A DNA stretch of 64,000 bases from positions 1-64,000 of the forward strand of contig JAFQRA010000024.1 of assembly GCA_017410325.1 (NCBI GenBank), in the 5' to 3' direction. Origin of the DNA: Clostridia bacterium. GTDB taxonomy: Bacteria > Bacillota > Clostridia > Oscillospirales > Acutalibacteraceae. This document shows positions 20,794 to 48,639 of this stretch, in pieces (position 1 is the first letter of the stretch; the number at the start of each line of letters is the position of its first letter). The notes beneath the pieces were generated by a model. It worked only from the letters and a program-made list of their open reading frames with translations, did not search any database and was not told the origin of the DNA. The translations under genes were made by a program, and so were the position numbers.

Positions 20794-21288
20794 TTAACGC
20801 CTGATTATCTCATCAGCAATATCATCTATCATTTTACTGTCAGTATTGATTTTGACAGTGTTGAGTGAGCTGTACATACTGAGCCTTGCCAGGCTTCGTT
20901 CAACAACATCCATTTCTCTTATACCGTGGGCAATATCCTTTTCAAGTCTTTTGCGTAATGTATTTTCGTTGCAGACCAATGAAATACATTTCACATTAAC
21001 ATTATCCGTTTCAAGATTTGCGAGTATCGAATCAATAATATACTGCTCGTGCATAACCCAACAGAAAATGATGTTTTCGTAGGCTGAGCAACGGATAAAA
21101 TTATTAAGAAGATAACAGATATTATCCGTAACCATTTCCTTTGTTTCTTCCGTTACCTGAAAGGGTGAAGCGTCCCAGCACCAGTCGCCGTCGAGAAATA
21201 CGCTGTTGTTCAGCCGCTTTTTAAGCTGTTGGCAGACGGTTGTTTTTCCTACACCCATAGTACCGCCGATAATGTATAAATTTTTCAT
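20794..21288 (-). CDS. P-loop nucleotide kinase-like protein
   Basis: This is about 164 residues. Walker A GGTMGVGKTT lies at the N-terminus right after a beta strand (LYIIGG). A small-kinase fold follows, with a lid-like RKRLEKD segment. It resembles AAA_33/adenylate-kinase-like proteins that phosphorylate small molecules or nucleotides. The substrate is unknown. The ATG at 21288 sits one base after the stop of the GNAT gene, inside its end sequence, and uses GGAG in that gene as ribosome site. The longer open frame upstream overlaps GNAT and is rejected. Confidence 0.72.
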   Translation of the reverse strand: MKNLYIIGGTMGVGKTTVCQQLKKRLNNSVFLDGDWCWDASPFQVTEETKEMVTDNICYLLNNFIRCSAYENIIFCWVMHEQYIIDSILANLETDNVNVKCISLVCNENTLRKRLEKDIAHGIREMDVVERSLARLSMYSSLNTVKINTDSKMIDDIADEIIRR

Positions 21289-21289
21289 A

Positions 21290-21736
21290 TCATTTCTCCA
21301 TAAAATACGCCTGTCCGTCTTCAACGTAACCGCATTTTTCATACAAGCCTTTTGCAGTGGGGTTATTAACGTTTACGTAAAGCCTTATACCGGTTGCATT
21401 ATATTTCTCTTTAAGCTCGTCAGCTTTTTTCATAAGAGCTTTTGCAAGACCCTTGCCACGGTAATCGGGCTGTACCCACAGCTCATCCACGAAAATATGA
21501 CCGTGACCGCCCCATATACCGATTTTCGGAATATAGGTCAGCGATATCCAACCGATGAATCGGTTTTCAACCTCAACGGCATATACGTAAAAATCCTTGT
21601 TTTCAAGCTCGTTCTTCACCGCATCGGTTACAGATGTGCAAGCAGGCGTACGTTCAACGGAATTGACACGCCAATACACCATATCCTCAAAACGGTTATA
21701 ATTTTCTGTAGTAATTCTTTCAATACTGTAATGCAT
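21290..21736 (-). CDS. GNAT-family N-acetyltransferase
   Basis: This 148-residue protein shows the acetyl-CoA binding loop V-x-P-x-x-R-G-x-G-x-A (VQPDYRGKGLAKALMKKA) near residue 92 and the conserved late motif NPTAKGLYEKCGY. The family transfers acetyl groups to amines of small molecules or proteins. The substrate cannot be inferred. It is placed 2 bases after the AlkD-like gene and is followed at once by the P-loop kinase, so the three share an operon with the phosphoesterase upstream. Confidence 0.9.
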   Translation of the reverse strand: MHYSIERITTENYNRFEDMVYWRVNSVERTPACTSVTDAVKNELENKDFYVYAVEVENRFIGWISLTYIPKIGIWGGHGHIFVDELWVQPDYRGKGLAKALMKKADELKEKYNATGIRLYVNVNNPTAKGLYEKCGYVEDGQAYFMEK

Positions 21737-21738
21737 TT

Positions 21739-22413
21739 TTAATTCCTTTTAAGTGTCTTTAAATATTGCTTTTGCTCGTCTGTAATTCTGTAGCTTTCAA
21801 CGGCTTTCTGAATTGTTTTATTGTGTGTCCATTTATCAAGGGTATTGTTTTCGATAAAGGGAAGGGTTGCTTCGTACTGCTTGGCGAGTGCCGTTGCAAA
21901 AAACCACGCAAGCATCATATTGACGTAATATTCACCGCTTTTTACACTTGCGGCAAGGGTGAGATATTCGGGGCGGAACGCACCGTCAAGATAGTAACGC
22001 ATCAGCATTTCCAGACCGAAGCGCACGGTATATACGTGGTCTGAATTTATCCAAATCTTTATTTGCTCAAGCAGCTCGGGCAGGTGCTTTTTAAACACCT
22101 TCGGGCGCAGGGAATCGCAGGTTGCCCAATTATCGATAAAGGGAAGAAAGGCATTCACAGCCTTCATACACTCGCCGTAATCCCCTATCCGCTCAATCAG
22201 GAATGCGTGGAGGTTGTTTTCCTCGTAACAGGCGTGCGGTAAGGACTGCATAAACGCCCTTGCCTCATCGAGCGAAAGCTCTTTTGCGAATTTTCGCAGC
22301 ACGGGTATTCTGATTCCGATTATTTTGTTTTCATCAACCGTGGGCATAAGCCTTGAATGAAATGCCTTATATTCGGTGTCCTGCATTGAAAGCAGCTTTT
22401 CGGTTACGTTCAT
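21739..22413 (-). CDS. DNA alkylation repair protein, AlkD-like
   Basis: This 224-residue all-helical protein of HEAT-like repeats has the family phrases RIPVLRKFAKEL, NNWATCDSL-like DNWATCDSL and the C-terminal YVNMMLAWFFATALAKQ. AlkD-type glycosylases remove bulky or positively charged alkylated bases (N3- and N7-alkylpurines) from DNA without flipping the base. Its start overlaps the stop of the metallophosphoesterase gene by 4 bases (ATGA). It is one of two DNA-base glycosylase-type genes in the window, the other at 30577. Confidence 0.88.
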   Translation of the reverse strand: MNVTEKLLSMQDTEYKAFHSRLMPTVDENKIIGIRIPVLRKFAKELSLDEARAFMQSLPHACYEENNLHAFLIERIGDYGECMKAVNAFLPFIDNWATCDSLRPKVFKKHLPELLEQIKIWINSDHVYTVRFGLEMLMRYYLDGAFRPEYLTLAASVKSGEYYVNMMLAWFFATALAKQYEATLPFIENNTLDKWTHNKTIQKAVESYRITDEQKQYLKTLKRN

Positions 22414-23405
22414 TTGCGTTTATTACCCTTTTCACCCATAATATCGGAGATATAGACCATATCGGAAGTAAAATTCCAGTTGTCGTTTTCGTTGATTTCG
22501 ATAAGCCTGCCGCCTCTTATCCAGTCGCGCTGATAGCCGTCGTAGGTAAGGCCGCCGTCATAGGCAAATTTAATGCCGCAATAAGTGCCGTGGAAATCGT
22601 TTATATGGTCGTGCCCTGCAAAGATAGCCTTGATATCGCCCCTTTGCAGGCAAGCGGCAAACAGGCCGAAATTGATTTCGCCCGAAGCCACGTTTTCGCA
22701 CTTGCTGCCGTAGCACTTACAGTCGTGATAATTCTGCGAAACAAGATAAAACTCGGGTATTGCTATATGCATATACATCATACCCGGTATTTTTTCGCCG
22801 TTTTCCTTTTCCAGCCGCATCGACTCAAAATAATACCACGCCGCCTGGTCAAAATGAACGCCGTCATAATCCGTGCCGTCGTGCAGGTGGTTGTGGAGAA
22901 CGATTTTCATATCCTCGGGCAGACCGTATTCACGCCTGAAGCCGCGGAGATTGTCGTGAGAATCAAAGCCCCAGACGGCGAATTTGATTTTATCGCTGTC
23001 GCTTGCAAAAACGGGAAGGCAGTAATTACCCACACCGCTGATTTCCTCGGGCCCCGCCTCGGAAAGACAAAGCGGATAGGACTCGTAAATCTCCTGCTGT
23101 TTTTCTCTTGACAGCCCGTAGTTATCGTCGTGATTGCCGAAAACATGTGCCCACGGGATATTACGCTTATTCATCGGCTCGGTAATAATATCGAGATACT
23201 CCCGCAAATCCTGCTCGGTTTCAACGTGCACGGGGCCGCAGCCTGCAGTATCTCCGCCAAGCAGAACAAGGTCGGGCTCATATTTTGCCATAACAGCTTC
23301 AATCGCTTCGGGCAGCTGGTCGCTGACACCCTTGCCGCCGTGAAGGTCTGACATTAAAAATATTCTGAACGGCTTGTCTTTTTTAAATCGGAGCTGCTTT
23401 TTCAT
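22410..23405 (-). CDS. Calcineurin-like metallophosphoesterase
   Basis: This 331-residue protein has the five metal motifs of the superfamily: DLHGG (about 20), GGDTAG, GNHD (GNHDDNY), a lone histidine motif (LHNHLH) and the final GHDHINDF. No signal peptide is obvious. Such enzymes hydrolyse phosphomonoesters or diesters using two metal ions. The real substrate is unknown. It heads the operon with the AlkD-like, GNAT and P-loop kinase genes. Confidence 0.88.
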   Translation of the reverse strand: MKKQLRFKKDKPFRIFLMSDLHGGKGVSDQLPEAIEAVMAKYEPDLVLLGGDTAGCGPVHVETEQDLREYLDIITEPMNKRNIPWAHVFGNHDDNYGLSREKQQEIYESYPLCLSEAGPEEISGVGNYCLPVFASDSDKIKFAVWGFDSHDNLRGFRREYGLPEDMKIVLHNHLHDGTDYDGVHFDQAAWYYFESMRLEKENGEKIPGMMYMHIAIPEFYLVSQNYHDCKCYGSKCENVASGEINFGLFAACLQRGDIKAIFAGHDHINDFHGTYCGIKFAYDGGLTYDGYQRDWIRGGRLIEINENDNWNFTSDMVYISDIMGEKGNKRK

Positions 23406-23442
23406 TGCTTTCGTTCCCCTTTCGGATTTGCGTTATATCTTC

Positions 23443-23470
23443 ATAATATCAATTAATAAACAAAGGTCAA
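23443..23470 (-). promoter_or_regulatory. Promoter of the metallophosphoesterase operon
   Basis: On the minus strand TTGACC (23465-23470) and TATTAT (23443-23448) have a 16-base spacer. The leader is about 30 bases and includes an AAAGGGG ribosome site. Confidence 0.65.
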
Positions 23471-23500
23471 TACGGTGCAGAGAAATTTAACTTAAAATTC

Positions 23501-23537
23501 AAAAAGCTGCTTTGCCCACTCAAGCAAAACAGCTTTT
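23501..23537 (-). terminator. Terminator after the 62-residue protein gene
   Basis: On the minus strand AAAAGCTGTTTTGC pairs with GCAAAGCAGCTTTT, and the 3' arm ends in five T residues. Confidence 0.85.
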
Positions 23538-23541
23538 ACGT

Positions 23542-23730
23542 TTATTCCTCTATCGGCTCCCAGCCGTCCACAACGACGTCCTCTTCCTCGTCAAGGTGAG
23601 TGACAACGCGGTATTTTCTGCCGTCGTTGCCTTCGGCCGTGCCGTCTTCATAGCAGGTTATGGTCACACCGTTTTCAAGGGTTGCGGTGTGAGTATAGCC
23701 GAGGTGTTTATGATATAATTCGTAGAACAT
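23542..23730 (-). CDS. Small acidic protein of unknown function
   Basis: This 62-residue protein is acidic, especially at its C-terminus (HLDEEEDVVVDGWEPIEE). It contains a short beta-like core (TATLENGVTITCYEDGTAEG). No recognised family. It begins 2 bases after the YgjV-like gene and ends 5 bases before a clear terminator, which supports a real gene in a two-gene operon. Codon use looks normal for the core genome. Confidence 0.65.
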   Translation of the reverse strand: MFYELYHKHLGYTHTATLENGVTITCYEDGTAEGNDGRKYRVVTHLDEEEDVVVDGWEPIEE

Positions 23731-23732
23731 AA

Positions 23733-24266
23733 TTATTTTTCATTTCCCTTCTTGCGGTCGTGAATAATCATACCCACAACAGTAAAGCCGAGCAGAACGA
23801 TATGCGAAACGAATGCGCCGTAGGACTTGGAAATCAGGTCGTATATGCACCAGAGAATACTGTTGACAATAACCCAGAAGCGGTACTTTGCTCCGTTTTT
23901 CTGGCCGATACACATAACAAACGAGAGCGAAGCGACAATCGCAAGCACGGTAAGCCCGTTGAAGCTGCCGAAAACGAGATTGACCGCAACAAAGCCGAGT
24001 GCGTAAAGCGCAACGAGCCATTTTGGAAGCGGCTTACCCTTTGAATCGAAAAAGTAGTTGATTATTGCCTGCAGACCGCCGAGGTAGCAGGAAGCCGCAC
24101 CGTTGATTCCGCTGCCCGCAAGCAGATAGCTTGTGGCAAAAAGAACGTTGCTGCAAAAGACGAAGAAAAGTATCAGCTTCATCTTGCGGCCCTTGATGAG
24201 TGAAGCCGCAATCATTGAAACAAGGCCGAGTGTGCTGAGAACAAAAGATAACGTTTGCATATTCAT
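23733..24266 (-). CDS. YgjV-family inner membrane protein
   Basis: This 177-residue protein has about five or six membrane helices and a short soluble loop with FDSKGKPLPKW. The pattern (a first helix, a CSN-type phrase in the second helix, a GGLQAIINYFFD segment) fits the YgjV family of bacterial inner membrane proteins. Its function is not established. It has its own promoter, divergent from the leader-peptide gene on the other strand, and shares the transcript with a 62-residue protein. Confidence 0.78.
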   Translation of the reverse strand: MNMQTLSFVLSTLGLVSMIAASLIKGRKMKLILFFVFCSNVLFATSYLLAGSGINGAASCYLGGLQAIINYFFDSKGKPLPKWLVALYALGFVAVNLVFGSFNGLTVLAIVASLSFVMCIGQKNGAKYRFWVIVNSILWCIYDLISKSYGAFVSHIVLLGFTVVGMIIHDRKKGNEK

Positions 24267-24295
24267 ATATCCTCAATAAAAATTTTTACCGGAAG

Positions 24296-24324
24296 ATTGT
24301 AGCACAGATTTTGCCAAAAAGCAA
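24296..24324 (-). promoter_or_regulatory. Promoter of the YgjV-like gene
   Basis: On the minus strand TTGCTT (24319-24324) and TACAAT (24296-24301) have a 17-base spacer. It is back to back with the plus-strand attenuator promoter, 15 bases away. Confidence 0.65.
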
Positions 24325-24339
24325 CGGAAAGCAAAAATA

Positions 24340-24368
24340 TTGACAATTTTGAAATATGAGCGTATAAT
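24340..24368 (+). promoter_or_regulatory. Consensus promoter of the leader peptide-GNAT unit
   Basis: TTGACA (24340-24345) and TATAAT (24363-24368) with a 17-base spacer are a perfect match to the sigma-A consensus. Such strength is expected when expression is held down by attenuation downstream. Confidence 0.92.
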
Positions 24369-24402
24369 CATAAAAAAATTATTTGAAAGGCAGGCGGACA
24401 AA

Positions 24403-24471
24403 ATGACAACGTATTATATGTATTATTCAAAACCGTATATTGAATCAGACGTTGTTTTGCCCGCAATATAA
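24403..24471 (+). CDS. Tyrosine-rich leader peptide (22 residues)
   Basis: This short frame begins behind an AAAGG site, 35 bases after a consensus promoter. It starts MTTYYMYYSKPY, with four Tyr among residues 4-8 and a fifth at 12, and ends VLPAI before a TAA. The stop lies inside an 18-bp perfect palindrome, and an intrinsic terminator follows 20 bases later, ahead of a GNAT gene. This is the layout of a ribosome-sensing leader peptide, in which stalling on the early codons would change the fold of the RNA. Whether the trigger is tyrosine shortage or an antibiotic is unknown. Confidence 0.75.
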   Translation: MTTYYMYYSKPYIESDVVLPAI

Positions 24472-24524
24472 GCTTATATTGTTATACCTGAACTCCTCTG
24501 ATTTTTTATCGGAGGAGTTTTTTT
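24436..24524 (+). promoter_or_regulatory. Transcription attenuator ahead of the GNAT gene
   Basis: The terminator is a 12-bp stem (24491-24502 with 24508-24519, one T-G pair), a T5 loop and a T run to 24524. An alternative 7-bp helix pairs AATCAGA (24443-24449, within the leader peptide codons 14-16) with TCTGATT (24497-24503), which would break the terminator stem. TATATTG (24436-24442) and TATATTG (24475-24481) compete for CAATATA (24464-24470), giving two exclusive upstream folds. A ribosome held at the early tyrosine codons leaves 24443-24449 free; one that reaches the stop covers it. The mechanism is inferred, while the pairings are visible. Confidence 0.7.
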
Positions 24525-24540
24525 ATTTGGAGTGATAAAT

Positions 24541-25032
24541 ATGATTTCATTAAGATTAACCGCACCAGAAGACGTTGATATTCTGACGGATATTCAGCAA
24601 AAAGCCTTTCAGCCGCTTTATGAAAAGTATCACGATAAAGGCAATCCGTGCTTAAGAGATAAACGTGATATCCTTTGCCGATTGGATAACCCTAATTTTA
24701 TGTATCTGACAATTCTGCTTGACGAAAAAATTGTCGGCGGTATTTTGTACAGAATAAAAGGCTCTACACCGTTTATAAAGAATCTTCGTTGGGGCAAATA
24801 TTATCTCGGAAGGGTATATATTTCGCCCGAATATCAGAACCACGGCATTGCAACCGAGGCAATATTGCAGTCGGAAAAATTTTTGAAAAAGCCGAGAAAG
24901 TTATATGTTGATTTTCCCGAGGATTTGGAAAAAAACAGAAAATGCTATACTAAATGCGGCTATAAGGACACAGGCAAACGCCTTGAAGCAGAGCCGGGAT
25001 TGGTTTTAGCCTGTTTTGAAAAGAAGTGTTAA
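24541..25032 (+). CDS. GNAT-family acetyltransferase under attenuator control
   Basis: This 163-residue protein has the acetyl-CoA loop VYISPEYQNHGIATEAI (V-x-x-x-x-Q/R-x-x-G-I-A) near residue 95 and the late motif NRKCYTKCGYKDTGKRL. GNAT enzymes acetylate amino groups of small molecules or proteins, and some give antibiotic resistance. No specific substrate is recognisable here. The ATG at 24541, 8 bases after GGAG (24529-24532), is preferred over GTG 24532, which falls within that site. The gene follows a leader peptide and terminator, so its expression should depend on translation of the leader (inference). Confidence 0.88.
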   Translation: MISLRLTAPEDVDILTDIQQKAFQPLYEKYHDKGNPCLRDKRDILCRLDNPNFMYLTILLDEKIVGGILYRIKGSTPFIKNLRWGKYYLGRVYISPEYQNHGIATEAILQSEKFLKKPRKLYVDFPEDLEKNRKCYTKCGYKDTGKRLEAEPGLVLACFEKKC

Positions 25033-25107
25033 TGCAGGTTTTATTCACGAATCGCCCGAGTCAATTGCCATATCCGCATTTTTAACATAAGCAAACGCAA
25101 AAATAAT

Positions 25108-25179
25108 TGTCATTCTGAACGCAGTGAAGAATCTTAAAACACAAAAAGAAAGATTCTTCGGCTACGCCTCAGAATGACA
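25108..25179. repeat. Palindromic interspersed repeat (TGTCATTCTGA type)
   Basis: TGTCATTCTGA at the left end and TCAGAATGACA at the right end are exact reverse complements. GAAGAATCTT and AAGATTCTTC are paired inside, and short mismatched parts lie between. Similar TGTCATTCTGA...TCAGAATGACA units occur in many gut bacteria. It lies in a 370-base gap without a gene (25033-25402). Confidence 0.7.
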
Positions 25180-25257
25180 TATAGTAAGGTTTGTTTAAAT
25201 TTGCAAAACGGCATATTACTTTTAGCACAGGCAATTCGTGAATTGCCCCTACTACAT

Positions 25258-25375
25258 TGTAACATCTTAAAGTTGACTTTTGTAGGGGCGGATATTATCC
25301 GCCCGTGCTGATATTGCTCGGTTTGCTGGCGGCTGATAGCCGCCCCTACAGTGAAGTTTTAGTTGTTACAGCGTA
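25258..25375 (+). repeat. 118-bp dispersed repeat, copy 1
   Basis: This segment is identical to 26495-26612 except for one base. It contains an inverted pair GTAGGGGCGG ... CCGCCCCTAC and an inner GGCGGATATTATCCGCC hairpin. The two copies bracket the HEFLHH protein gene in direct orientation. Confidence 0.85.
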
Positions 25376-25402
25376 CTACAAAGACGAGAAGGGATTTAAA
25401 CC

Positions 25403-26281
25403 GTGATTAAAGCAACACATACTGTCGAAAACATATCAATAACAAATGCCCCCTCAATATCCGCAATATATTTTGCGCTGTTACAGTCCGGGTATGATTA
25501 TTACTCATTCGCGAGAACACAGAAGCAAATTGAATCCGTTAAATCATTTTACAATCCCGAATTATATTCCGTTTTCTTTTCCGAAGCCAAACAAAACACC
25601 TGTGAAACATATTCTTACTGGCCGAGGGCAGCTCTGATGGAGTCAGCAGTTTTTTATATTAATACCGACACGGCTCGTTTTTCGGATTTTGCAGAATACA
25701 AAAATTTTGTTATGTCAGCAAGCAATTTGGAAGATACTCAAAGAGATGAAAATTTTTGGTCTTGGATTGCCGACTTTCCTGCCGAATTAAACAGAGTTAT
25801 TAACAGCGAACCGTTTAAAAAATATTTAGAATGGGAAAACGGTTGGATAGAACAGCAGAACAAAGCAAACTCAGATACCTTGACAGCTTTACAGCAAACA
25901 ATTGAAATATGCACAGACAAATACAATACTGACATCAACACCATTAAAATAGTTTTATCACCAATAAAATGTGCATATTCAAGCGATTATCACGTTACAG
26001 ATAAACAGTTGATTATCTGTTCGGGTGCATTTAATTCAGACTCCGTAATACACGAGTTTTTGCATCATATAATTCATCCGTATATAATCAAAACACAAAG
26101 CCGTATTCTTGCAAACAAAAAACTTTTTGACGGTATAGACACTTCGTATTATCTTGATAACGAGAGCGGTAAGCTCAACGCATTTGAGGAGTATTCAGTA
26201 AGAACCTTGACGAAACAAGCTTTAAAGAAGGCACTGCCTGATGATTTGGAAAAATACATTTTATCTCTTTCAAATAATTAA
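25403..26281 (+). CDS. Predicted zinc metallopeptidase-like protein with HEFLHH motif
   Basis: This 292-residue soluble protein has no signal peptide. Residues 217-222 read HEFLHH, an HExxH zinc motif followed by an extra His. A glutamate-rich FEEYSVR segment lies about 40 residues further and could supply the third ligand. I recognise no named family. The start is GTG 25403 behind GAGAAGGG. The gene stands alone between dispersed palindromic repeats on both sides, with 118-bp direct copies flanking it, and no homologous neighbour. Horizontal arrival of this gene or local duplication of the repeats is plausible. Confidence 0.7.
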   Translation: MIKATHTVENISITNAPSISAIYFALLQSGYDYYSFARTQKQIESVKSFYNPELYSVFFSEAKQNTCETYSYWPRAALMESAVFYINTDTARFSDFAEYKNFVMSASNLEDTQRDENFWSWIADFPAELNRVINSEPFKKYLEWENGWIEQQNKANSDTLTALQQTIEICTDKYNTDINTIKIVLSPIKCAYSSDYHVTDKQLIICSGAFNSDSVIHEFLHHIIHPYIIKTQSRILANKKLFDGIDTSYYLDNESGKLNAFEEYSVRTLTKQALKKALPDDLEKYILSLSNN

Positions 26282-26308
26282 AATCTGTGATAAGCCTGCC
26301 AAACGTTC

Positions 26309-26377
26309 AAGGAAACGGTCTCGACCGTTCCGACAGGTTTTATCTGACTTTTCGGAAGGGTCAAGACCCTTCCCTAC
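26309..26377. repeat. Interspersed palindromic repeat, GTAGGGAACG family, second copy
   Basis: Paired hairpins (GGAAACGGTC-tc-GACCGTTCC and GGAAGGGTC-aa-GACCCTTCC) and a following GATATAAATATAA stretch match the arrangement at 20602-20720, with many base changes. Confidence 0.5.
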
Positions 26378-26494
26378 AGTTCTGTCGTGCAGTGATATAA
26401 ATATAATTTTTTAATTGTTACACTGCCCCTACCAAGACAAACAACATCGCCAATTTAAGGTTTCATTAAAGTTCAGACTTCTTTCGTAGTACAA

Positions 26495-26612
26495 TGTAAC
26501 ATCATAAAGTTGACTTTTGTAGGGGCGGATATTATCCGCCCGTGCTGATATTGCTCGGTTTGCTGGCGGCTGATAGCCGCCCCTACAGTGAAGTTTTAGT
26601 TGTTACAGCGTA
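26495..26612 (+). repeat. 118-bp dispersed repeat, copy 2
   Basis: Near-identical direct copy of 25258-25375 (one difference, A for T near the left end). It ends at the base before the next palindromic unit. Confidence 0.85.
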
Positions 26613-26680
26613 GTAGGGGCACATAATATGTGCCCGCGAAGCCGGAAGAAGCCTATCGGGCGGATAATATCCGCCCCTAC
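26613..26680. repeat. Palindromic repeat, GTAGGGGC family
   Basis: GTAGGGGC (26613-26620) and GCCCCTAC (26673-26680) are reverse complements. Inner hairpins are GGGCACATAATATGTGCCC and GGGCGGATAATATCCGCCC. It abuts copy 2 of the 118-bp repeat. Confidence 0.65.
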
Positions 26681-26743
26681 ACGGATAACATTTAAGTTAT
26701 ATCTCTTAAGTTAACGACATTACAACAAGGATGGGATTAAGCC

Positions 26744-27376
26744 GTGGTTACATTAGCAGAATATCTTAACAACCCTTGCGGTACTCTTTCAATTCCGTAT
26801 TGGAAGGCTAAAAATATTGTAGTACCGACTGATATAAAAATCCTACACGATAAGGATTTTAGTGCAGATATCTTATCAGAATATACTGATGAAAAGTATT
26901 TTCGTTTGTATCACAGCCTTAAAGAGATACCCGAAATCGTAATCGATGATTTTGAAATCACAACCGCAACACGAAGAAATATAAAAACAATCGTGCAGAT
27001 AATCAACGATTCATATACAGATATTTCGGTGAATGCGGAACTTATCAAAAGTTATATCAAAACACCTGTTTATAACAAAAACTTATGGATAATGGTTAAA
27101 GAAAAAGCAACGGGTAAATTTGTTGGTTGCGGTTTGGCTGACTATGATGCAGAAGTAAAAGAGCTTATACTCGAGTGGATACAAGTGTTACCTGAATACC
27201 GTGGCAAGAAAATCGGACAGTTGATAGTAACCGAACTTCTGTTCAGAATGAAAGATATTGCCGATTTTGCTACAGTTTCGGGTAAAGTGGATAATTCTAC
27301 AAAACCTGAAGCACTATACAGAAAATGCGGATTTGTTGGCAGTGACGTGTGGCATATTCTGTATAAAAACAAATAA
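26744..27376 (+). CDS. GNAT-family acetyltransferase
   Basis: This encodes 210 residues. The first 70 are an N-terminal extension with no clear match. The GNAT core follows, with LPEYRGKKIGQLIVTELL as the acetyl-CoA loop near residue 150 and a late KPEALYRKCGF motif. The start GTG is supported by AAGGATGG upstream and the residue pattern. The stop is 14 bases before the metallopeptidase-HAD fusion gene, so they are probably co-transcribed. The substrate is unknown. Confidence 0.85.
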   Translation: MVTLAEYLNNPCGTLSIPYWKAKNIVVPTDIKILHDKDFSADILSEYTDEKYFRLYHSLKEIPEIVIDDFEITTATRRNIKTIVQIINDSYTDISVNAELIKSYIKTPVYNKNLWIMVKEKATGKFVGCGLADYDAEVKELILEWIQVLPEYRGKKIGQLIVTELLFRMKDIADFATVSGKVDNSTKPEALYRKCGFVGSDVWHILYKNK

Positions 27377-27390
27377 AAGGAGCTTCAATT

Positions 27391-28551
27391 ATGAATCCTT
27401 GGAAGTCACAAAACTATAAAAAAATATATGATAACCAAGATATAAGAACGGGCATTGCTTTACGTTTTGAAAAAGGTGTTCACGGTGATATAAAATCGCT
27501 ATTTACAGACTTTACAAAATGGTTGAGGAAGAATTATTATTTTCCCATCCGTGTTGTAGTATACGTCAAGGAAAGCGAAACAATTAAGTTGATGAATGGA
27601 AGTATGGCTTGGGGTTCTTTCAGGTATTTTGATACTTTCGATGAGCCATACATCAGGATTCCTACAGGCGATTATTTGAAACAAGCCGAAATTGAAGGCA
27701 AAGAAAATGCCGCATATACGATACTTTCTTCTTTTGTTCACGAATTGACACATTATTTTCAGTGGGTAAATCAATTTGAACAAACTGACAGAGGTTCGGA
27801 GTGGCAAGCAAACTATTACCGCAACAGAATTATTGATTTGTATCTGAATGAAAAAGAAAACACAAACCAAAAGTTCAAAGCCATATTCTTTGACCGTGAC
27901 GGTACGCTTACATATTTCACCGCAGAAAAAGAGGCATGGCGTGACAGGCAAATCAGCAGCTGGAGCGGTAAGCCGTTTGAACTTGATTACAACAAAATGA
28001 TGGCGTTATTTCACCTTGCAAGCGAAGGCAGAAAGCCTTGGTACAGAACGCTTGATGATGAGCGTGAGTTTTTCAGAAGATACTATTATCACCTGCTGGT
28101 CGGTGAGGGTGTAACGGAAAACATTAAAGAAAAAGCAGACCTTCTTTTGAATGAGCTTTGGTGCAACGGTGACAGAGCTTTGTTTCCCGAAACGGTTGAG
28201 GTACTTGAGTATTTCAAAAGCCGTGGCTACAAAATGGGAGTTATCAGCGACACTTCTCCTTCGCTTGAATTTACATTACAGCAGCTTGGCATTGCAAAAT
28301 ATTTCACTTCATTCACAGCAAGCTCATTGGTCGGTGCAGGCAAACCGAGCCCGATTATTTTCAACGCCGCACTTAAAGCGCAAGGCGTCACCGCCGAAGA
28401 AAGTATATTTGTTGACGACTGCAAGGAAGAAGCCGACGGAGCAAGAGAACAAGGTTTTACAGCCTTTTATCTTGACCGAAGCGGAGAAAACAACGATAAA
28501 TGGACAATACACAATCTGAAACAGTTGATTGATTTTGTTGAAAGAATATGA
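27391..28551 (+). CDS. Fusion of a zinc-metallopeptidase-like domain and a HAD hydrolase
   Basis: This encodes 386 residues. Residues 1-155 form a metallopeptidase-like domain: HELTH at 117-121 followed by a conserved-looking SEWQAN with Glu137, a pattern seen in SprT/ImmA-type gluzincin-like folds. Residues 163-386 form a HAD hydrolase of the phosphoglycolate phosphatase sort: FFDRDGTLT (nucleophile Asp168), VISDTSPS, GKPSPIIF and FVDDCKEEADGA. The join at about 155-165 is a short Lys/Asn-rich linker. No signal peptide. The combination is unusual and the two activities could be independent or a recent fusion of neighbouring genes. Confidence 0.8.
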   Translation: MNPWKSQNYKKIYDNQDIRTGIALRFEKGVHGDIKSLFTDFTKWLRKNYYFPIRVVVYVKESETIKLMNGSMAWGSFRYFDTFDEPYIRIPTGDYLKQAEIEGKENAAYTILSSFVHELTHYFQWVNQFEQTDRGSEWQANYYRNRIIDLYLNEKENTNQKFKAIFFDRDGTLTYFTAEKEAWRDRQISSWSGKPFELDYNKMMALFHLASEGRKPWYRTLDDEREFFRRYYYHLLVGEGVTENIKEKADLLLNELWCNGDRALFPETVEVLEYFKSRGYKMGVISDTSPSLEFTLQQLGIAKYFTSFTASSLVGAGKPSPIIFNAALKAQGVTAEESIFVDDCKEEADGAREQGFTAFYLDRSGENNDKWTIHNLKQLIDFVERI

Positions 28552-28569
28552 ATTAAAGGATTTGATATT

Positions 28570-29121
28570 ATGAAATTAGTTATAATATTCGGCAATCTAG
28601 CTGTCGGTAAAATGACTGTCGGGCAAGAACTCACAAAGATTACCGACCTTAAATTATTTCACAATCATATGACTATTGAGCCGGTAATAGAAATATTCGG
28701 ATATTACGAGGGAAAAACAGTCAATAGATTACGACAGGTTTTCTTTGAAGAGTTTTCAAAAAGCAACAATTACGGAATGATATTCACCTATGTCTGGGCT
28801 TTCGACCACCAAGGCGATTGGGATTATATAAAATATGTTTCCGATTTGTTCAAAGAACAAGGTTCAGAAGTATATTATGTTGAACTTGTTGCTTCACAAG
28901 AGATAAGACTTGAAAGGAACTCAACAGAAAACCGTCTTAACAATAAGCCGTCAAAACGCAACCTTGATTTTGCAAGAAAAGACTTGCTTGATACCGATAA
29001 AAAATACCGCACCGAAAGCTATGACGGTGAAATAACGTTCCCGAATTATATTAAGATTGATAACTCAAACTTAGCACCCGACATTGTTGCGAAAATGATA
29101 AAAGAAAAGTTTGATTTGTAA
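28570..29121 (+). CDS. P-loop kinase-like protein
   Basis: This 183-residue protein has an N-terminal beta strand and Walker A loop (IIFGNLAVGKMT, with Met where Thr/Ser is usual before the final Thr). A lid-like region ERNSTENRLNNKPSKR lies near residue 115. It resembles chloramphenicol phosphotransferase-like and other small-molecule kinases. No substrate can be assigned. It starts 18 bases after the fusion gene and overlaps nothing. The following methyltransferase starts 10 bases after its stop, so this is a small plus-strand operon. Confidence 0.72.
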   Translation: MKLVIIFGNLAVGKMTVGQELTKITDLKLFHNHMTIEPVIEIFGYYEGKTVNRLRQVFFEEFSKSNNYGMIFTYVWAFDHQGDWDYIKYVSDLFKEQGSEVYYVELVASQEIRLERNSTENRLNNKPSKRNLDFARKDLLDTDKKYRTESYDGEITFPNYIKIDNSNLAPDIVAKMIKEKFDL

Positions 29122-31826: not shown

Positions 31827-31843
31827 ATAAGTCAACAGTCGAT

Positions 31844-31872
31844 ATTCTACACTATATTTTCAAAAAAATCAA
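31844..31872 (-). promoter_or_regulatory. Promoter of tRNA-Ser
   Basis: On the minus strand TTGATT (31867-31872) and TAGAAT (31844-31849) have a 17-base spacer, about 18 bases before the tRNA. Confidence 0.7.
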
Positions 31873-31913
31873 GACTTATTTTAAATATTTTAAAAATTCT
31901 TTTCACATATCTG

Positions 31914-31949
31914 AAAGCCCTTGGGAACTATTGTGCTCCCAAGGGCTTT
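31914..31949 (-). terminator. Hairpin after the GH3 gene
   Basis: AAAGCCCTTGGGA and TCCCAAGGGCTTT form a 13-bp stem (31914-31949) between the GH3 stop and the tRNA-Ser promoter. A short T stretch only; likely the GH3 terminator. Confidence 0.7.
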
Positions 31950-31960
31950 GTTAATTGGAA

Positions 31961-45689: not shown

Positions 45690-46223
45690 TCAACCATTCC
45701 TTTCAAGTTCATTTTTCAGCAGCTGCCTTGCGTACTGAAGGCGCTTACGCACGGCAACGGGGCTGAGACCAAGAATATTTGCAATTTCATTGGACTTGTA
45801 GCCTTCTATATAATACAAATCCAGTATTATTTTGTATTTTGAAGGAAGATGCATTATCGTTTCAAACAAGTCTCTGTCATCGGGACTGATGCCTATTCCT
45901 TCAAGCTCGGCAAGATTGGCAGACTGGTGTGTTTTTCGAAAGCGCACCATATTCTTGCTGATGTTGGTTGCAACCTTAATCAGCCACGCCTTTTCGTGCT
46001 CGGAATCCTTGAACAGCGGAGCCTTTGTCATATAGCGGATAAAGGTTTCCTGCAAGGCGTCCTCGGTATCGGCTTCGTTGAGCAAAATGGAATAACAGAT
46101 ACGGAAAAGCGTTTTGCTGTATTTCTCAACAGCATATTCAACGAAACGTAATTCTTCGTTATAGCGCGATTTAATTCCCGTTTCTCTCACCCCTTTACCG
46201 TAAAAAGGCAATAATATACCCAT
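45690..46223 (-). CDS. ECF-type RNA polymerase sigma factor
   Basis: This 177-residue protein shows sigma-70 region 2 (FRICYSILLNEADTEDALQETFIRY) and region 4 (LPSKYKIILDLYYIEGYKSNEIANILGLSPVAVRKRLQYARQLLK). ECF sigma factors redirect RNA polymerase to stress or envelope genes. The ATG at 46223 lies only 4 bases after a TATAAT (46228-46233, minus strand), so either the message is leaderless or translation begins at the GTG 11 codons inside. The next gene is a short anti-sigma-like peptide. Confidence 0.9.
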   Translation of the reverse strand: MGILLPFYGKGVRETGIKSRYNEELRFVEYAVEKYSKTLFRICYSILLNEADTEDALQETFIRYMTKAPLFKDSEHEKAWLIKVATNISKNMVRFRKTHQSANLAELEGIGISPDDRDLFETIMHLPSKYKIILDLYYIEGYKSNEIANILGLSPVAVRKRLQYARQLLKNELERNG

Positions 46224-46279
46224 TTATATTATACACACATAAGCAATTCGTTTTGTGACAAAAATAAAAAAAATTTTTT

Positions 46280-46323
46280 AAAAAAATTTAAGAGCCTCTC
46301 CCGCTTGGTGTTCGGGAGAGGCT
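46280..46323 (-). terminator. Terminator of the Clp ATPase gene
   Basis: On the minus strand AGCCTCTCCCG and CGGGAGAGGCT form an 11-bp stem followed shortly by a run of seven T residues. It ends the long ruvC-to-clp run. Confidence 0.9.
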
Positions 46324-46329
46324 TTACGC

Positions 46330-48639
46330 TTAAAATGCGGATATTACGATTTCGCCGTTTTCGGCTGAAAGAGCAACCGTTTTAAGCGGTGAGTCAGCGT
46401 TTTCAACGATGAGGTTAGCAATTTTATCCTCAACGCTTCTGCGGATTGCGTTGCGCAAATCGCGGGCACCTCTCGTGCCGTTTTCGCATTTTCCTGCAAG
46501 CACGGCAGGAACATCGTCCGACCACGAAAAGCTGATGCCCTTATTCTGCAGAGGCTCGACAAGCTCGTCCAGCATAAGCACGGCTATCTGCTCGTAGTTT
46601 TCCTGCGTCAGGTCGTTGAACACGGCAATTTCGTCAACTCGGCCTATAAACTCAGGGCGCAGGAATTCACGAAGAGCCTTCATTGCCCTGTCGGTGCTTG
46701 CCTCAGCCTTGCTTTTTGCAAAGCCGAGCGCATCTCCCTTGCGGTCGCTGCCTGCGTTGGAGGTCATAATGATAACCGTGTTTTCAAAGCTGACAGTTCG
46801 CCCTTGTGCATCGGTAATTTTTCCTTCATCAAGAATCTGGAGAAGGATATTCATTACATCGGGATGTGCCTTTTCAATTTCATCAAAAAGTATAACAGAA
46901 TAAGGCTTTCTGCGAACCTTTTCGGTGAGCTGACCTGCCTCATCATATCCGACATAGCCGGGCGGTGAGCCGATAATTCTCGACACGCTGTGCTTTTCCA
47001 TAAACTCGGACATGTCAAGACGGATAAGCGTTTCGGGTGTATCGAAAAGCTCCTGCGAAAGTAGCTTTACGAGCTCCGTTTTACCTACACCTGTGGGACC
47101 TACAAAGATAAACGATGACGGTCTGCGCCTCGGGCTTATCTGCACCCTGCCGCGCTTGATTGCGGCGGCAACAACCTTTACGGCCTCGTCCTGACCTATA
47201 AGCTTTTCCTTGAGCTTATTTTCAAGGTCGGCAAGCCGGCGAAGGTCGCTTTCGATAACCTTCTGCGCGGGAATACCCGTCCAGAGCTGGATAACCTTTG
47301 CAAGGTCATCCTCGGTCACGTTATTGTCCTTTGCAAGCTCGGCAAGATTAATTATTTCGTTTTCGCAAGCCATAATCTCTGCCTTAACCTTAGACACGGC
47401 CTCGTAGTCGATTTCCTTTTCCTCGGAAAGCTTCTGATGCTCAACCTTAAGCATTCCAAGACGCTTTTCCGCCATTTCGTGCATTGAGATATACTTGTTT
47501 CTCAGGTTTGCGCAGGTGCACGCCTCGTCAAGAAGGTCGATAGCCTTATCGGGCAGGAAGCGGTCGTTTATATAGCGCTCGGAAAGCACTACTGCGCTGT
47601 AAACAAGCGAATCGTTGATTCTTACTCTGTGGTAATTCTCGTAATAGTCCTTGATTCCCACGAGAACCTTATAGGTATCCTCAACGGAAGGCTCTTCAAC
47701 CTTGACGGGCTGAAGGCGGCGTTCAAGCGCCGCGTCCTTTTCGATATACTTACGGTACTCGGTAAAGGTTGTTGCACCTATAATCTGGATTTCTCCGCGG
47801 GACAGTGCAGGCTTGAGAATGTTTGCGGCATTCATCGAGCCTTCCGCATCACCCGTACCGACGAGGTTGTGCACCTCGTCAATAAAGAGGATTATATTGC
47901 CCTCTGCCTTTACTTCATCAACAAGGCCCTTTATTCTGCTTTCAAACTGACCCCTGAACTGTGTGCCCGCAACGAGGGCTGTAAGGTCCAGCAGGTGTAT
48001 TTCCTTATCTGCAAGCTTTGCAGGCACGTCGCCGTTTGCTATTTTGAGGGCAAGACCCTCGGCAATGGCTGTTTTACCTACACCGGGCTCGCCGATAAGG
48101 CAGGGATTGTTCTTTGAACGGCGGCAAAGAATCTGGATAGCACGGTAAATCTCGTTGTCTCTGCCTATGATTCGGTCAATTTTGCCGTCCCTCGCCTTTC
48201 GGGTAAGGTCGGTACAGTACAGAGAGAGATACTTACGCTTTTTCTCATCGGGCTTTTTCTTCTTTTTACCGAAGATACTCGGCTTACCGTCGGGCACCTC
48301 CTCCGCAACGATTTCGCCCTCTTCACCGTCCTCAACATTGGGGGCCTCGGAGGAATTCATTGCGGCAAAGTTCTGCAAAAACGGGAAGGTGGGTGCACCG
48401 CCCGCTTCAAAAGCACCTTCGTCAAGCCCCTGGAAAGCGGCATCCATCTGCTCTGTTACCGCATCGACATCGTCTTCCGTTATCCCCATATTTTCCATCA
48501 TCTGCTTGATGGGGCCGAGATTCATTTCCATTGCGCATTTGAGACAGTAGCCGGAAGGATTGGACTGCCCGTTTTCAACGCGCTGAATGAAAATAACCGC
48601 CGGACGCTGCTTGCACTTACTGCACATCATTCTTTTCAT
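46330..48639 (-). CDS. clpE: ClpE-like ATP-dependent Clp ATPase with N-terminal zinc finger
   Basis: This 769-residue AAA+ chaperone begins with a zinc finger of four cysteines (Cys6, Cys9, Cys32, Cys35), like ClpE, instead of the double Clp-N domain. Two ATPase modules follow: [15 protein letters not shown] (first Walker A) and [15 protein letters not shown] (second), with LFIDEVH and LFDEIEKAH Walker B boxes. It unfolds proteins and feeds them to ClpP. It is the last gene of the long minus-strand run, 30 bases after pgsA. Confidence 0.92.

Follow-up and report, generated by a model that had tools for sequence, protein, structure and literature searches.

In trp-type amino-acid attenuators, segments of the transcript pair as 1:2, 2:3, or 3:4, which gives three states. 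Leader-peptide attenuation of resistance genes was reportedly found by Dar and colleagues by using Term-seq. The YjhQ protein of topAI-yjhQ in Escherichia coli is a GNAT. Passages of one article state that the cplR, vmlR, and vga(A) attenuators respond to drugs whose likely effect is to arrest ribosomes on start codons, and that the toiL leader answers tetracycline and retapamulin at its start codon (PMC12121999). Passages of another give retapamulin and lincomycin as inducers of cplR (PMC10201436).

The locus described here lies on the forward strand of a stretch of 64,000 nucleotides from a Clostridia bacterium (the window). We consider it likely to be a ribosome-mediated transcription attenuator that belongs to a dispersed Clostridia family and that responds when a ribosome stops or slows on the start codon of a leader frame or immediately downstream of it. 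Comparison of copies and computed folds support the individual elements and their conservation, as well as alternative pairings, the second of which shows paired change across the family. Read-through on stalling, a drug signal, and a detoxifying role for the downstream acetyltransferase are inferred. The main value of the finding lies in the wider family.

Anatomy and conservation of the window locus

In the window locus, a consensus promoter (24340-24368; TTGACA at 24340-24345, 17 nucleotides, TATAAT at 24363-24368) is followed by a frame of 22 codons, then by a terminator, and lastly by a GNAT gene. Judging from the promoter, transcription would start just upstream of the ribosome-binding site of the leader. 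The frame, MTTYYMYYSKPYIESDVVLPAI, occupies 24403-24471, with the stop TAA at 24469-24471, and has Tyr at codons 4, 5, 7, 8, and 12. Alignments of copies reveal a conserved stretch, GAAAGGCAGG(C/T)GGAC, at 24385-24399, which includes the Shine-Dalgarno sequence of the leader. A sequence-only reading had named the promoter, the Tyr-rich frame, the terminator, and a palindrome, all of which are read in the sequence. Its 7-bp pairing of 24443-24449 with 24497-24503 is exact, and a further G-U pair, 24442:24504, brings it to 8 bp.

The attenuator anatomy in that reading stands as to leader, terminator, and pairing, but it lacked a hairpin, P1, and included a palindrome that is not conserved. In P1, positions 24394-24408 pair with 24450-24464 and cover the ribosome-binding site and start codon of the leader. 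The hairpin directly adjoins the antiterminator strand and thereby completes a candidate four-segment switch. Segment 1 (24394-24408) is the 5' arm of P1. Segment 2 (24442-24464) is the antiterminator strand at 24442-24449 followed by the 3' arm of P1 at 24450-24464. Segment 3 (24491-24504) comprises the terminator 5' arm at 24491-24502 and the antiterminator partner at 24497-24504, and segment 4 (24508-24524) comprises the terminator 3' arm at 24508-24519 and a run of 7 U residues at 24518-24524. The perfect, AU-rich 18-nucleotide palindrome spans the leader stop at 24464-24481. We rejected it as an essential part, because relatives have other AU-rich sequence at that place.

The fold of the window leader RNA beats those of 200 of 200 dinucleotide shuffles (z -4.06). 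We do not regard the 7-nucleotide complement between leader and terminator as significant on its own, because a match of 7 nucleotides also arises in 4939 of 20000 cases when the leader is recoded synonymously and in 1806 of 20000 when its letters are shuffled. The pairing is credible because it is conserved and because it undergoes paired change across the family.

The GNAT acetyltransferase gene encodes 163 amino acids (24541-25032) and has a ribosome-binding site at 24529-24532. Homologues align from MISLR or MITLR, which fits a start at 24541; a GTG upstream, at 24532, is less likely. The protein matches Pfam Acetyltransf_1 (7.8e-13), and its nearest solved chain is PaiA 1tiq (E 1.9e-11). 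Among solved structures with a name, its closest relatives are the polyamine acetyltransferases PaiA and DpA, and none of the curated resistance models matches it at the cut-off, so a detoxifying role is a guess. The surrounding region, 20794-29121, holds small accessory genes. Pfam identifies three of them as GNAT genes, and inspection by eye suggests two that resemble P-loop kinases and one that is HAD-like; in relatives, the accessory genes are partly missing or elsewhere. Downstream of the GNAT gene, at 25105-25350, are intergenic sequences resembling inverted repeats, of the types TCATTCTGA...TCAGAATGA and GGGGC/GCCCC (by eye).

The leader frame is present in 11 of 11 distinct copies of the GNAT branch, window included. 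The sequence-only reading would have been refuted by loss of the frame or of the pairing in close relatives, and this outcome did not occur: the 10 other distinct copies keep the leader, the terminator, and the 8-bp pairing. It had also proposed to look for leader, palindrome, and terminator upstream of GNAT homologues; leader and terminator stay with this gene in all 11 copies, but the palindrome does not. Over the 11 aligned leaders, 96.4% of P1 cells, 98.5% of terminator cells, and 100% of antiterminator cells are paired (88 of 88 for the 8-bp antiterminator), and 8 of 297 P1 and terminator cells are unpaired. P1 has 13 of 15 positions paired in the window and 15 of 15 in 7 of the 11 aligned copies, and the minimum-energy fold of the window joins the same two P1 strands in a shifted register. 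The pair-keeping changes in the branch are all one-sided and do not exceed the shuffle control, so the counts alone are no proof of pairing. Even so, variation is distributed in a suggestive way: the two stretches that would have to serve in two pairings, segment 3 and the antiterminator strand of segment 2, are nearly invariant, whereas segments 1 and 4 drift mainly via wobble pairs.

A scan of one genome per species gave 15 loci with GNAT relatives. Nine of these, with GNAT identity of 84-94%, have promoter, leader, and terminator, and the other six (24-57%) gave no leader-model match. The GNAT was found in 4 of 11 genus genomes and 11 of 398 family genomes (own genome included); in these searches, seven loci with at least 80% GNAT identity have the leader and four others lack it. 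The covariance model of the leader (R1) gave no match upstream of the GNAT gene in the distant relatives L012-L014, L016-L018, and L025-L028; L028 has weak, off-place R1 matches. L028 carries a distant homologue of the GNAT (32-36%). Upstream of it, at about 1980-2170 on the reverse strand, lies a different frame, which by eye translates as MTYCRHTLTVNTVSVNPTAVTFWYGVGLIPLCSFRG, and then a terminator-like hairpin; this is perhaps an independent attenuator of a related gene.

Codon use in the leader is fixed where it could vary: in our own reading of 10 leaders, 6 of 6 conserved degenerate columns use one codon. In the GNAT gene, 22 of 103 conserved columns use one codon, and 3 of 30 conserved fourfold sites are invariant.

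When 10 relatives were compared with 11 other window genes, L004 and L015 shared several and L010 and L011 one or two, and six of the 10 had none of the 11 in the fetched stretch. From the -35 box onward, the L009 and L010 cassettes share 91% identity along 724 bp, and their genomes appear to belong to different families of the class. L136, which equals L009 over 900 nucleotides, is in a genome (G1047, f76) of another family than G230 (f1), the probable genome of L010. Given this and the neighbors that six relatives do not share, the GNAT gene and its leader appear to travel together. Two loci retain an intact leader ahead of a truncated GNAT gene, which ends after codon 33 in L015 (3001-3200) and after about 10 codons in L035 (1650-1710), where a GrpB-HAD gene is next.

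A dispersed family of leaders

When 398 genomes of the same family were searched with R1, many matches besides the GNAT locus were found. A second covariance model, of P1 alone, was built from 27 members. At E <= 0.001, it matched 41 of the 398 genomes of the family. Among 394 genomes sampled from the order, 24 matched at E <= 0.01, and among 381 sampled from the class, 5 did so at E <= 1e-4. The own genome belongs to each of the three sets, and the eight weakest order-level matches look false or unconfirmed (L075-L079 lack a proper leader and L080-L082 lack a pattern match). We also rejected L056, which shows no leader, and two weak R1 matches in the window, at 46203-46335 and 31827-31960, which are AT-rich with a hairpin and have no leader.

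The family as counted here consists of 79 leaders. These remain from 90 distinct pattern matches after removal of 11 that are on the wrong strand or have no proper leader (the plus-strand matches of L057 and L065, L075-L079, L096 at 1355, L128, L133, and L134). A terminator was not found in L114 or in L124, which is near a contig end, and removal of these two gives the 77 members used in most counts. Model matches without a pattern match (for example, L121) are outside all counts; L122 is kept, though its peptide frame looks wrong. Near-duplicates among the 77 include L045/L051, L127/L129, and L048/L110. The later finds L137-L139 are outside the counts of 77, L138 and L139 have no leader by the pattern, and L136 repeats L009. 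Confirmed copies number up to four per genome (G195, G268), and G326 has five model matches and three confirmed leaders. The window's own genome has a second leader copy upstream of another GNAT gene (L084).

With small variations, the 79 leaders share GAAAG..AGGTGGACAAAATGA, a variable middle, and GTTTTGTCCG, which is the P1 partner and encodes a peptide ending of the AVLSV or VVLSA type. They are 16-35 codons long and start with ATG in 78 cases and TTG in one, although the search pattern itself favored ATG. Between leader and gene, 77 of the 79 have a hairpin and a U run, which are weak in L041 and L063. A promoter-like pair (best score of at least 9 of 12) is upstream of 70 of 77 members, versus 12 of 77 shuffled upstream sequences, and the distance from the end of the -10 box to the GAAAGG motif is 13-16 nucleotides in 50 of 77. 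Near-identical 50-nucleotide promoter stretches (46-49 of 50 identical to L009) occur in L009, L049, and L058, which have different leaders, genes, and genomes, as if promoter and leader modules recombine. Over 27 members, the 12-bp core of P1 is paired in 99.4% of 324 cells; here too, pair-keeping changes are one-sided only, and the shuffle control is not exceeded.

With Rfam 15, only a tRNA reached its gathering score in the window, and there was nothing on the leader; at 12 family loci searched at E <= 1, no leader match reached gathering score. A sub-threshold match lies on the L053 leader (U7, 25.3 of 34 bits). Separately, L037 has a T-box-like match at 1767-2020, whose 87.7 bits are just below the gathering score of 93. 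Literature searches showed no description of the leader motif in the titles and beginnings of abstracts listed, nor do passages from two papers that survey new RNA motifs (PMC11109978, PMC8632094) name it.

Evidence for an antiterminator comes from comparison of branches. Other branches have a different terminator, and segment 2 is changed to match. In the window, segment 2 and its terminator partner are AAATCAGA and TCTGATTT; elsewhere the partners are GTGAAGTCAG with CTGATTTCAC, GAAACCGAAG with CTTCGGTTTT, TTTATACGA with TCGTATAAA, and CGGAGA with TCTCCG. The median energy of the duplex between segment 2 and terminator is -13.8 kcal/mol for true partners versus -7.2 kcal/mol for swapped ones, where swaps are confined to arms less than about 70% alike. 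The true partner beats at least 95% of swaps in 54 of 77 members and does not in 23, and for 444 of 3649 swaps the pairing is no worse than that of the true partner. Ungapped helices of at least 8 bp occur in 58% of the 77 members versus 7% after shuffling of segment 2; for at least 5 bp, the contrast is small (99% versus 81%). That leader and terminator change together across the family supports the antiterminator. Thus, one feature of attenuators, an antiterminator that excludes the terminator and is backed by paired change, is present.

A predicted gene in the same direction follows 68 of 77 members, and the other 9 have no frame of at least 60 codons. We classified 62 of these 68 proteins, leaving out the close GNAT-branch copies L006-L011 and keeping L001, L004, L005, and L021. 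There are 34 Acetyltransf_1 proteins, 7 with LytTR and receiver domains, 3 histidine phosphatases, 2 GrpB, and 2 HAD proteins, and singles that include an ABC transporter, a methyltransferase, and a nucleoside phosphorylase. The single ABC_tran match (L038) starts at residue 374 of 481 in a partial gene. LytTR response regulators lie downstream of L045, L051, L118, L120, L125, L127, and L129; the assignment is shown singly for L045 and L127 and rests on similar starts for the other five. A LytTR regulator under ribosome-stall control could spread the response.

Ribosome position and the sensed signal

We folded transcripts at equilibrium, ending them before the terminator 3' arm, and scored the antiterminator for each P-site codon. 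One mask covers everything up to the leading edge of the ribosome, and the other only a 31-nucleotide footprint. With the leading-edge mask, the antiterminator forms in 72, 73, 73, 68, and 61 of 77 members at codons 1-5, in 6 at codon 12, and in none at the last sense codon. The footprint mask gives a steeper fall over codons 1-6 (72, 73, 71, 54, 40, and 13 of 77), and no member forms the antiterminator at codon 11 or 12. With the ribosome on the last sense codon, however, 41 of 77 form it again under this mask, which means that slow termination might be an inducer as well. In the window, the probability of the antiterminator is 1.00 at codons 1-9 (leading-edge mask) and at least 0.97 at codons 1-7 (footprint mask), versus 0.03 without a ribosome. 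What the family members share in these masked folds is the need for a ribosome that stays within the first few codons.

Equilibrium folds also constrain the model. Without a ribosome, 21 of 77 members favor the antiterminator, and no more than 43 of 77 reach at least 9 of the 12 P1 pairs (the window has 6.3), so the model needs P1 to form first. When the full terminator is included, it wins in all folds among those listed, and the switch would therefore have to be kinetic.

We propose that, when no ribosome is present, segment 1 would pair with segment 2, and the terminator, 3:4, would stop RNA polymerase. A moving ribosome would pass segment 2, and the terminator would still form. A ribosome held with its P site at about codons 1-4 would cover segment 1 and leave segment 2 free to pair with the terminator 5' arm (2:3), so that the GNAT gene would be transcribed. 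The sensed event would be arrest or slowing of a ribosome at or just after the start codon, and the simplest trigger would be an antibiotic of the pleuromutilin, lincosamide, or tetracycline kind. By analogy with cplR, vmlR, vga(A), and toiL, such drugs are the likeliest inducers here. Among candidate signals, a ribosome arrested near the start codon, as by some antibiotics, is thus the most likely.

The sequence-only reading had already suggested that an early-held ribosome frees the antiterminator, a view that the comparisons and folds support. Of the two signals that it had considered, tyrosyl-tRNA level or a ribosome-targeting antibiotic, tyrosine is probably wrong. Comparison across the family leads us to reject it as the general signal: only 12 of 77 leaders, the GNAT branch of the window, have Tyr-Tyr at codons 4-5, and 65 members of the same architecture lack it. 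Tyr makes up 2.0% of codons 2-8 in 63 distinct peptides without Tyr-Tyr, versus 48% in the Tyr-Tyr branch, and 4.3% of the first 60 residues of downstream proteins. Codon 2 is Thr in 47 of the 63.

Tyrosine might still act within the Tyr-Tyr branch, where scarce charged tRNA-Tyr or inhibition of tyrosyl-tRNA synthetase would stall ribosomes at Y4/Y5 and turn the GNAT gene on. Y4-Y5 is encoded as TAT TAT in 10 of 10 leaders compared, whereas codons 6-13 show a pairwise difference of 28% (9 leaders, L004 left out); because these two codons are fixed while the following loop codons vary, tuning by Tyr is conceivable, and in the folds a ribosome held at codons 4-5 of the window leader leaves the antiterminator free. 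However, Y7, Y8, and Y12 are not conserved among relatives, and the downstream GNAT is nearest to PaiA and not a gene of tyrosine synthesis, charging, or transport. Moreover, with the footprint mask, the antiterminator is mostly lost by codon 5 in several relatives (probability at most 0.20 in L005-L007, L009, and L010) and already at codon 3 in L008 (0.04). We regard a tyrosine-specific attenuator as unlikely; the locus shows the marks of one at most in part.

Somewhat less likely again is a sensor of initiation or translation capacity that does not involve drugs. P1 would hide the start codon, and the share of transcripts that catch a ribosome in time would set read-through. It would explain why P1 lies over the ribosome-binding site and start codon in the 27 aligned members, where it is the most conserved part, and why the antiterminator window opens at codon 1. 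Yet free-running ribosomes should not occupy codons 1-4 for long, and GNATs, LytTR regulators, and histidine phosphatases do not suggest growth-rate control.

It is very improbable that the leader is a functional small protein with incidental hairpins, because the conserved peptide end (AVLSV or VVLSA types), which might suggest this, is what pairing with the ribosome-binding site requires, and the middle of the peptide varies among family members in both its length and its sequence. We give least credence to a dispersed repeat or degraded mobile element without regulatory role: several copies per genome, a sporadic distribution, and nearly identical promoters upstream of different leaders would fit it, but the same-direction genes, the promoter-like pairs, and the joint change of leader and terminator would not, and no match was found for one exact leader pattern in viral contigs or for one leader by BLAST in plasmids and phages.

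Comparison with known systems

The chances seem about even that the family amounts to a translation-stress regulon that needs no common regulator protein. A single portable module of promoter, leader, and terminator, with up to four confirmed copies in a genome and passed between genes and between Clostridia families, would then let the ribosome switch on acetyltransferases, LytTR regulators, phosphatases, and others upon any arrest near the start codon. If the proposed mechanism is true, many uncharacterized GNAT and accessory genes of gut Clostridia would be inducible by ribosome inhibitors. They would be candidate resistance or stress genes, with a sequence signature to find more, and one attenuator module would have been reused with new genes while paired changes kept the switch.

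Of the known systems, trp-type attenuators share with the present family the segments 1:2, 2:3, and 3:4 and the three states. In contrast to them, the family has no shared regulatory codon, its window gene is outside an amino-acid pathway, and its sensing interval is at the very start of the frame.

The leader attenuators of ARE-ABCF genes, which include C. difficile cplR, B. subtilis vmlR, and lsaA, likewise have a short frame before an intrinsic terminator, according to passages of PMC10201436. Those passages give consensus frames of MRI/MRM, MIN, and MAGN, with 3-4 codons, that control ABC-F genes. The present leaders have 16-35 codons, a conserved hairpin over their ribosome-binding site, and mostly GNAT genes downstream. 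With neither an ABC-F gene downstream nor a frame of 3-4 codons, the window leader is outside the ABC-F leader group.

As described in passages of PMC12121999, the toiL uORF of E. coli topAI-yjhQ is one leader that answers several drug classes. Compared by that description, toiL controls topAI translation, with Rho-dependent termination, whereas the present family uses an intrinsic terminator (PMC12121999). The same passages describe the whiB7 uORF of Actinobacteria as a leader that answers many translation inhibitors. That leader is upstream of whiB7 (PMC12121999), whereas copies of the present leader stand before separate, unrelated genes.
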